From contig WFZS01000064.1 in assembly GCA_015489465.1 (NCBI GenBank), positions 1 through 42,410 of the forward strand: a stretch of 42,410 nucleotides of DNA, written 5' to 3'. Below the pieces are notes generated by a model. It saw only the letters and a list, made by a program, of their open reading frames with translations. It was not told where the DNA came from and made no database searches. Each line of letters begins with the position of its first letter. Within the stretch, counting starts at the first letter, position 1. This document shows positions 1,319 through 4,918 of the stretch, piece by piece. The DNA is from Bacteroidales bacterium. GTDB lineage: Bacteria > Bacteroidota > Bacteroidia > Bacteroidales > F082. A program made the position numbers and the translations under genes.

Positions 1319-1356
1319 ATAAAAAAACCACTGAAATTTAGCATAACAGTGGTTAA
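1319..1356 (-). terminator. Minus-strand terminator downstream of the ssrA tail copy
   Basis: Stem AACCACTG / CAGTGGTT followed on the minus strand by a run of T residues. It lies beyond the second copy of the ssrA 3' tail (1371-1386). A likely reading is that this is the original ssrA terminator and that the terminator at 1420-1445 belongs to the sequence lying between the two tails. Confidence 0.65.
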
Positions 1357-1370
1357 AAAATATTTTTACG

Positions 1371-1399
1371 TGGAGCCGGAGGGATTAATTTCATTGATC
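1371..1399 (-). repeat. Second copy of ssrA 3' tail with junction palindrome
   Basis: Read on the minus strand this is GATCAATGAAATTAATCC followed by CTCCGGCTCCA. The last 16 bases (1371-1386) match the ssrA 3' end (1534-1549) at 15 of 16 positions. The first part, GATCAATGAA(A/G)TTAATCCCTC, recurs with one mismatch downstream of tRNA-Ser at 4889-4909. The spacing from tail to tail is 163 bp. The 17-base core GATCAATGAAATTAATC is an imperfect palindrome, as recombinase binding sites often are. No integrase gene is nearby. Confidence 0.7.
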
Positions 1400-1419
1400 A
1401 CGGTATTGGGGGAGTGCAA

Positions 1420-1445
1420 TAAAAAAAAAGACCGCTTTGCGGTCT
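1420..1445 (-). terminator. Minus-strand terminator downstream of ssrA
   Basis: Stem AGACCGC / GCGGTCT with a three-base loop. On the minus strand the hairpin is followed by nine or more T residues. It lies about 90 bases past the tmRNA 3' end, inside the segment flanked by the two ssrA tail copies. That segment also holds hairpins GTACAC/GTGTAC (1507-1523) and AGTTTTTAAAA/TTTTAAAAACT (1454-1498). Confidence 0.85.
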
Positions 1446-1533
1446 CGTCTAATAGTTTTTAAAACACTTACAAGCAAGCCGGAGACTTTTTAAAAACTTT
1501 TATCCGGTACACTTAGTGTGTACTTTCTTATTG

Positions 1534-1930
1534 TGGAGCTGGAGGGATTCGAACCCTCGTCCACACAAGGAACAGACATGCTTTCTACATGCTTAGCTTG
1601 TTATTGATTTTCGTGTGGAAACCGGGAACAAGCACCCAATTTTCCACCTTAGCCTCTTAAATTCTCGTTTCGCTTTAGAGGCGTCAGCGAAACCAGCCTG
1701 AACTTACTTGCGATCCGTTTACCGGGCCGGAATCAGGCATCTCCACCCGCGGACCGTCTCGTCCCGCTACCTTGTAACGGGATAAAGCCAATCTACTATA
1801 CTTCGATTAGGCTGCGAGAGCGTAATTTGATTCGCCAATTATTTTTTTGCGACACTGATTAACGAGCTTTATCGCATTGCTCGGCATGCTTACATGACCA
1901 TTCATCTTGCTGTCAAAACCGGTCAGCCCC
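1534..1930 (-). ncRNA. ssrA: Transfer-messenger RNA (tmRNA)
   Basis: Rescues stalled ribosomes by adding a degradation tag to unfinished proteins, with SmpB. On the minus strand the 5' end is GGGGCTGACCGGTTTTGACA, a standard tmRNA start, and the 3' end is a TTCGAAT T-arm followed by CAGCTCC, which pairs with GGGGCTG, then discriminator A. CCA is not encoded. The tag frame (1807-1836) reads GESNYALAA-stop with resume codon GGC, in line with the G-first tags known in Bacteroidota. The frame through the upstream GCA, which would be the resume codon in E. coli, reaches a TAA after two Lys codons, so GGC is the sensible choice. Length 397 nt. Confidence 0.97.
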
Positions 1931-4663: not shown

Positions 4664-4748
4664 GGAGAGTTGGCAGAGTGGTCGAATGCGGCGGTCTTGA
4701 AAACCGTTGACCCGCAAGGGTCCGGGGGTTCGAATCCCTCACTCTCCG
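4664..4748 (+). tRNA. tRNA-Ser (anticodon TGA)
   Basis: 85 nt with acceptor GGAGAGT / ACTCTCC, discriminator G, an anticodon loop CTTGAAA giving anticodon TGA, the long variable arm expected of tRNA-Ser (GACCCGCAAGGGTC), and a TTCGAAT T loop. CCA is not encoded. Its last 16 bases plus the next base recur exactly at 4902-4918. Confidence 0.96.
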
Positions 4749-4888
4749 CAAAAAGAAACCTACGACGACAGTCGTGGGTTTTTGTTTTTTAAGCGTGCCG
4801 AACAAGTTCGGTTAAGTATAAAAAAATAAAAACCCGAAAACCTCGTCAGAGGTTTAAGTTTCTATGCTTGCTCAGGACATCCAAACGG
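4749..4888 (+). other. Hairpin-rich spacer between the two tRNA-Ser tails
   Basis: Non-coding sequence bounded by the tRNA-Ser gene and a perfect copy of its tail. After the terminator it holds two more hairpins: CCGAAC/GTTCGG (4798-4811) and AAACCTC/GAGGTTT (4838-4855). No open reading frame fits it. The matching segment after ssrA is of similar size and also has three hairpins, but I see no long sequence identity between the two interiors. Confidence 0.5.
4758..4790 (+). terminator. Terminator after tRNA-Ser
   Basis: Nine-base-pair stem ACCTACGAC / GTCGTGGGT (one T-G pair) with loop GACA, followed by TTTTTGTTTTTT. Confidence 0.85.
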
Positions 4889-4918
4889 GATCAATGAAGT
4901 TAATCCCTCACTCTCCGC
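4889..4918 (+). repeat. Second copy of tRNA-Ser 3' tail with junction palindrome
   Basis: GATCAATGAAGTTAATCC followed by CTCACTCTCCGC. Bases 4902-4918 are a perfect 17-base copy of the tRNA-Ser 3' end (4733-4749), 169 bp away. The preceding GATCAATGAAGTT matches the junction beside the ssrA tail copy, while each tail matches its own upstream gene. A weak stem TGTAAA/TTTACA with T-rich sequence (4949-4980) follows and may be the original terminator. I see nothing else between here and 5100. Confidence 0.7.

Follow-up and report, generated by a model that had tools for sequence, protein, structure and literature searches.

Gene-less, strongly folded cassettes abutting tRNA and tmRNA 3' ends in Bacteroidota

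The rtT repeats behind tyrT of E. coli are tandem units of about 178 bp that follow a tRNA gene and each contain a tRNA tail. MITEs are likewise short, non-coding and non-autonomous, and are flanked by a direct duplication. The tDNA islands catalogued by Islander (PMC4383910) target tRNA and tmRNA genes at their 3' ends, leave a displaced tail fragment, leave the host gene intact and accrete in tandem; candidates shorter than 2 kb or lacking an integrase are rejected there. The integrase-coding mycobacteriophage Ms6 recombines within the T-loop of a tRNA gene, in a block at its 3' end (PMC1762012). Free-standing GIY-YIG homing endonucleases also occur beside tRNA genes, as exemplified by SegB of phages T4 and T6 (PMC2988022, PMC13096335), which is required for tandem segmental amplification of the tRNA region and is thereby a precedent for GIY-YIG-dependent amplification (PMC13096335).

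The insert examined here lies behind ssrA in the window, by which we mean the whole analysed stretch of 42,410 nt (contig WFZS01000064.1, assembly GCA_015489465.1, from a Bacteroidales bacterium). A preliminary description had reported that the ssrA 3' end recurs downstream with one mismatch. This repeat is real: GTGGAGC(C/T)GGAGGGATT is present at 1370-1386 and 1533-1549, 17 nt with one mismatch and a start-to-start distance of 163 bp, and it extends one base further at the low end than first noted. The tail motif has only these two matches in 42 kb at ≤2 mismatches, and none in any of 100 shuffles. The features of the locus are as follows.

1533..1930, minus strand: ssrA (tmRNA), the host gene (ARAGORN; Rfam RF00023, E=1.7e-69)
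1533..1549, minus strand: ssrA 3' tail, A58 to C74, 17 nt, the proximal direct-repeat copy (repeat search and tail alignment)
1370..1532, minus strand: whole insert of 163 bp, cassette plus distal tail copy (repeat spacing of 163; like units inserted at orthologous sites elsewhere)
1381..1532, minus strand: ssrA cassette (R1 covariance model, 50 bits, E about 1e-9)
1507..1523, minus strand: hairpin HA, GUACACACUAAGUGUAC (folding)
1446..1506, minus strand: long stem P2 with inner hairpin P2a (folding)
1428..1446, minus strand: hairpin HC, an intrinsic terminator, GAGACCGCAAAGCGGTC-TTTTTTTTT (fold and terminator scan)
1402..1415, minus strand: C-rich linker (kept across alignments)
1381..1401, minus strand: P3, a T-arm-like hairpin, GTGATCAATGAAATTAATCCC (family consensus GATCANCGNAGNTAATC)
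1370..1386, minus strand: distal ssrA tail copy, AATCCCTCCGGCTCCAC, 16/17 (repeat search)
1319..1356, minus strand: displaced, probably original, terminator-like hairpin of ssrA (sequence; similar hairpin at locus L043)

The host gene stays intact because the insertion adds a second copy of its last 17 nt, and the cassette supplies it with a new terminator while the old one is displaced outward. An inner terminator had been described near 1420-1445, and the terminator scan places a good one at 1428-1446 on the minus strand. For the outer minus-strand terminator at 1319-1356, the sequence does show a hairpin with a T-run, which is absent from the output of the simple terminator scan; at L043, a resembling hairpin (AACCACC..GGTGGTTTT) lies past the tail copy. 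Neither ARAGORN nor Rfam detects a tRNA gene at 1371-1386, so the tail copy is not the leftover of an ordinary tRNA gene, and that explanation was ruled out. As in tDNA islands, a tmRNA gene is followed by a displaced 3' fragment in the same orientation. In contrast to them, the insert is 163 bp long and contains no gene, and the PF00589 profile finds 0 proteins in the window contig, in agreement with the earlier statement that no integrase is encoded; the source genome has only three PF00589 tyrosine recombinases, two of a size fitting XerC/XerD. Islander would therefore discard such cassettes, being under 2 kb and without an integrase. Elsewhere in the window, two small neighbouring ORFs (64-543 and 643-1113) are paralogous and begin like lipoproteins (..SSCNK and ..TSCNK); a terminator-like hairpin follows each.

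The block adjoining the ssrA tail copy, GATCAATGAAATTAATCCC, has a match 140 bp after tRNA-Ser(TGA), which revealed a second cassette in the window.

4664..4749, plus strand: tRNA-Ser(TGA), host of the second cassette (ARAGORN, Rfam)
4750..4907, plus strand: second cassette (R1, 69 bits; fold z = -5.0)
4889..4907, plus strand: P3 of the second cassette, GATCAATGAAGTTAATCCC
4902..4918, plus strand: distal tRNA-Ser tail copy, exact (17/17), AATCCCTCACTCTCCGC

With the tRNA genes of the source genome checked in retrieved stretches, a third cassette was found behind tRNA-Ser(cga), with a tail of 14/17 (L219). The same block search led to tRNA-Ser cassettes in a Mucilaginibacter assembly and in another Bacteroidetes assembly, and block matches near a gene in the family follow, in most cases, tRNA-Ser, Arg, Pro or ssrA at a distance of 130-165 bp. 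A covariance model, R1, was built from nine tRNA-Ser cassettes of other genera, with no tRNA in the model. R1 recovers both window cassettes and, despite its tRNA-Ser-only training, also picks up ssrA, Pro, Glu, Met and Arg cassettes. Matches were obtained in 44/173 genomes of the family, 57/344 genomes of the order (41/195 genera) and 18/395 genomes of the phylum sample. A strict motif search over the phylum returned the source genome only; the motif alone thus underestimates the range, given these phylum matches of the covariance model. Of 92 distinct cassettes, 79 begin ≤20 nt from a gene end, 49 of them at exactly 0, and their hosts are Ser (43), Pro (10), Glu (9), ssrA (9), Arg (5) and Met (3); eight others are tandem or displaced, and for five the stretch contains no tRNA. 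Among 31 loci taken from the scans of the order and phylum, 25 start ≤5 nt from a tRNA or tmRNA end and one starts 14 nt after it, with the rest lying further along arrays or without a tRNA in the stretch. An exact 19-mer has no match in viral contigs and one cassette has none in phage and plasmid records by distant blastn, and phage or plasmid carriage was rejected on these results. The ssrA insert is thus no one-off: it belongs to a large structured family whose intact tail copies mostly match their host gene, widespread in Bacteroidota, gene-less, strongly folded and about 145-185 bp long (~165 bp). The family is apparently so far undescribed, no description of such cassettes having been found in the openly accessible literature.

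All cassettes share one fold. P1, starting from the gene end, closes three branches (HA, the long P2 with P2a, and HC), and 3' of this domain a C-rich linker leads to the T-arm-like hairpin P3, which has a GNA triloop and a conserved C.A mismatch; its 3' strand doubles as the first part of the tail copy. Among the nine tRNA-Ser cassettes, two-sided changes were observed in 25 of 56 pairs, a number reached by 0/500 shuffles, and 92.7% of cells are paired in register as opposed to 37-57% when the alignment is slid. The window ssrA cassette folds with a z of -2.1, weaker than the Ser cassette. Departures from pairing in the stems are more often G-U (178) than A-C (54), or 147:49 without the training rows; G-U outnumbering A-C favours a single-stranded, sense-strand form, although both this excess and the later alignments were fitted to the covariance model and are therefore biased in its favour. 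No Rfam family matches at its gathering score, with weak sub-threshold matches inside cassettes, and no known RNA family fits. For the same reason no homology to rtT is seen. Whereas rtT is known from one E. coli locus, the cassettes occupy many host genes in many genera and have a covarying fold. They also differ from MITEs in their specificity for tRNA and tmRNA ends and in duplicating the same 17 nt of the gene as a host-matching target-site duplication. Terminal inverted repeats of the MITE type are absent: in P1 the pairing partner of the left end lies ~30 nt in from the right end, which itself consists of P3 and the tail.

Precise insertion is expected to leave empty sites in relatives. 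Within genus g3, a conserved cluster of tRNA-Pro followed by tRNA-Ser(gct) is empty in two genomes (G573 and G033), with the tRNA directly joined to TTTT...GAAAACC, and occupied in two others (G580 and G021), where a cassette and tail copy are inserted at exactly that tRNA-Ser(gct) end. The empty orthologous sites lack exactly the cassette and tail, and nothing else. The insertion that had been proposed, of a small cassette bringing its own terminator and pushing the old one outward, is supported by these sister sites, and the empty site called for in relatives is found here, behind a sister cassette rather than the ssrA one. At ssrA itself, the spacer from ssrA to tRNA-Arg is 35-78 nt in four empty genomes versus 182-286 nt with a cassette, but the flanks are too diverged for a base-level comparison, and two more cassette-free genomes have spacers of 202 and 239 nt of unrelated sequence. 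An exact ssrA tail copy that starts 141-149 bp downstream, beyond an alignable cassette, is present in three genomes of the same genus (G002, G003, G004) and in one of another genus in the same family (G036). The fourth genome of the genus (G001) yielded no full ssrA, and ssrA occurs without a cassette in other genera. ORFs resembling four-helix-bundle (S23-like) proteins by eye stand right after ssrA at four loci (L032, L040, L053 and L057).

The tail copies alone could have been left by a large island that lost its interior, or have arisen by simple slippage. Such copies typify tDNA islands, and at one locus (L027, genome G007) a plain duplication of tail and terminator, 96 bp apart with unrelated filler, does lie behind ssrA. 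However, dozens of unrelated sites and hosts carry the same fold of 150 nt, which independent deletions or slippage cannot account for; this explanation is already contradicted by the family-wide data and has a negligible chance of being correct. Simple tandem duplication, which fits L027, fails on the shared fold and was rejected.

The tail repeat has constant limits. In 22 intact cases it starts at A58 (in one, a chance match puts the start two bases earlier); it is exactly 17 nt (A58 to C74) in 12 of these, and most of the longer ones run into a further unit. A tail match of ≥14/17 was found for 26/79 cassettes versus 4/395 displaced control places, the copy having decayed in about two thirds of cassettes. 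Intact copies mostly match their own host (Ser, Pro, Arg, Met, ssrA), and the copy at L126 may be another Ser tail. In G574 and G580, tga-, cga- and gct-type tails are joined to nearly identical cassette bodies, and cassettes behind different Ser genes of one genome are up to 0.90 identical. Comparison between genomes thus demonstrates, at the level of sequence, precise insertion, a 17-nt host duplication, a new terminator, arrays, and bodies shared between Ser genes.

A 17-nt duplication that is constant across different hosts is also what another staggered cut would produce, for example target-primed reverse transcription of a structured RNA with the bottom strand nicked in the T-loop and the top strand at the gene end. 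The strong single-strand structure with its G-U excess would suit such a route, but no cassette has been linked to a reverse transcriptase or transposase, and we regard it as improbable. The covarying fold could instead reflect a vertically inherited RNA trailer that functions in termination, processing or folding, its tail copy selected as an alternative 3' half. Consistent with this, the P3 5' strand tracks the host T-stem slightly more closely than with shuffled hosts (137/156 paired versus a mean of 131, p about 3e-4), and ssrA cassettes of genus g1 conserve P3 and the tail while the body has diverged. Patchy presence, empty sites, movement of cassettes between host genes within one genome and the decay of most tail copies argue against a trailer, which we consider quite improbable. 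The cassettes are instead very probably non-autonomous, gene-less mobile elements that enter precisely at tRNA and tmRNA 3' ends.

Some cassettes and related units form arrays, to which the suggested analogy with rtT applies well: at L269 and L297, tandem units behind a tRNA gene each contain a tRNA tail. At L269 (G113:C30:109268-110337), the cassette array behind tRNA-Ser(tga) is made up of units of about 177 bp that are bounded by tails, and in one of them a GIY-YIG gene replaces P2/HC. In G593, tRNA-Val precedes three 158-bp units with exact Val tails, and at L296 (G006:C1:2732800-2736600) tRNA-Met(cat) precedes a tandem row of six 356-bp units, every one of which contains a GIY-YIG gene together with an exact tRNA-Met tail copy. 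Among 45 small GIY-YIG loci, 12 follow a tRNA at a distance of up to 450 nt, and several of these have tail copies of 17/17. A unit with a GIY-YIG gene at L112 ends in P3, and in the source genome (L303, G000:C115:11600-13300) a GIY-YIG gene directly follows tRNA-Arg(cct), with a tRNA-Arg 3' half beyond it whose T-loop is split by a long hairpin. The window cassettes have no GIY-YIG gene, in contrast to these sister units at L269, L112 and L303. Most GIY-YIG units sit behind a different set of tRNAs (Asp, Val, Asn, Met, Arg-cct) from that used by the cassettes. Outside genus g14, cassette-bearing genomes have about 4.7 GIY-YIG genes each versus 4.2 in cassette-free ones (hand sum); because gene number fails to separate the two, the GIY-YIG link rests on shared architecture. 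If an autonomous relative is sought, as for MITEs, the GIY-YIG sister units at L269 and L296 are candidates that may be related to the cassettes, as their architecture suggests. Behind tRNA-Ser(gct) in G006, tandem units of ~190 bp with a terminator and a tRNA-Ser tail (L229) form another rtT-like array, since this genome has no match to the cassette model.

The case for mobility is comparative throughout. In the proposed mechanism, a nuclease would cut the T-arm or tail of an empty gene and the break would be repaired from an occupied one, so that cassettes home by gene conversion between tail-flanked copies, while unequal exchange between such copies would yield arrays. The nuclease would be one of the small GIY-YIG proteins, themselves encoded in tail-bounded units behind tRNA genes. 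P3, in place of a T-loop, would protect the tail copy from being cut and also keep it from competing in tRNA folding. SegB differs in being a phage protein; the GIY-YIG units here are chromosomal, and the cassettes encode nothing and end in P3 and the tail. The explanation as a whole, a mobile cassette family with this homing mechanism, is likely; for the GIY-YIG step, this family is the leading candidate for nuclease or mobiliser, an assignment that is possible rather than probable.

The main rival to GIY-YIG is a tyrosine integrase acting in trans, and sequence alone cannot decide between them. Crossover would take place in the T-loop (T-loop sublocation), with the tail as the attB/attP identity block, much as for genomic islands except that the interior would have shrunk to ~150 bp. 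The repeat does run from the T-loop to the gene end, as for the T-loop integrases of Ms6 (PMC1762012) and of islands (PMC4383910), and the arrays and exact insertion fit. In G033 and G573, a tyrosine-recombinase-like start (L230) and fragment (L238), recognized by eye with no HMM score, lie behind the same tRNA-Ser(gct) that bears cassettes in sister species. In G464 (L066), phage-like genes end in a T-arm and ssrA tail just before an ssrA cassette; an integrative element may lie between, because no ssrA body is present within 6.6 kb upstream. However, neither the cassette nor the window encodes an integrase, and two of the three recombinases in the genome are XerC/XerD-sized. An attP would need a matching tail each time, since intact tails match their different hosts, and P3 has 11 nt between GGGAT and ATCCC, compared with a 7-nt T-loop between the T-stem arms. 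Use of an integrase by the cassettes is therefore a candidate reading that we find doubtful.

With GIY-YIG nucleases as the preferred agents, the cassettes could tentatively be seen as a new class of mobile element: structured non-coding units that home into tRNA and tmRNA genes, would be moved by tRNA-targeting GIY-YIG endonucleases that act in trans and are encoded in sister units sharing these tail boundaries, and carry a T-arm-mimicking hairpin that would disarm the tail and adapt to each host. A common insertion class at the most used integration sites of bacteria may have gone unseen, because Islander (PMC4383910) rejects such units and Rfam holds nothing alike. The cassettes replace the terminators of important genes (tRNA-Ser, ssrA), and they bring RNA structure and tRNA genes together with small GIY-YIG nucleases in a system that is open to testing. 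The precise pairs of empty and occupied sites provide material for testing mobility.
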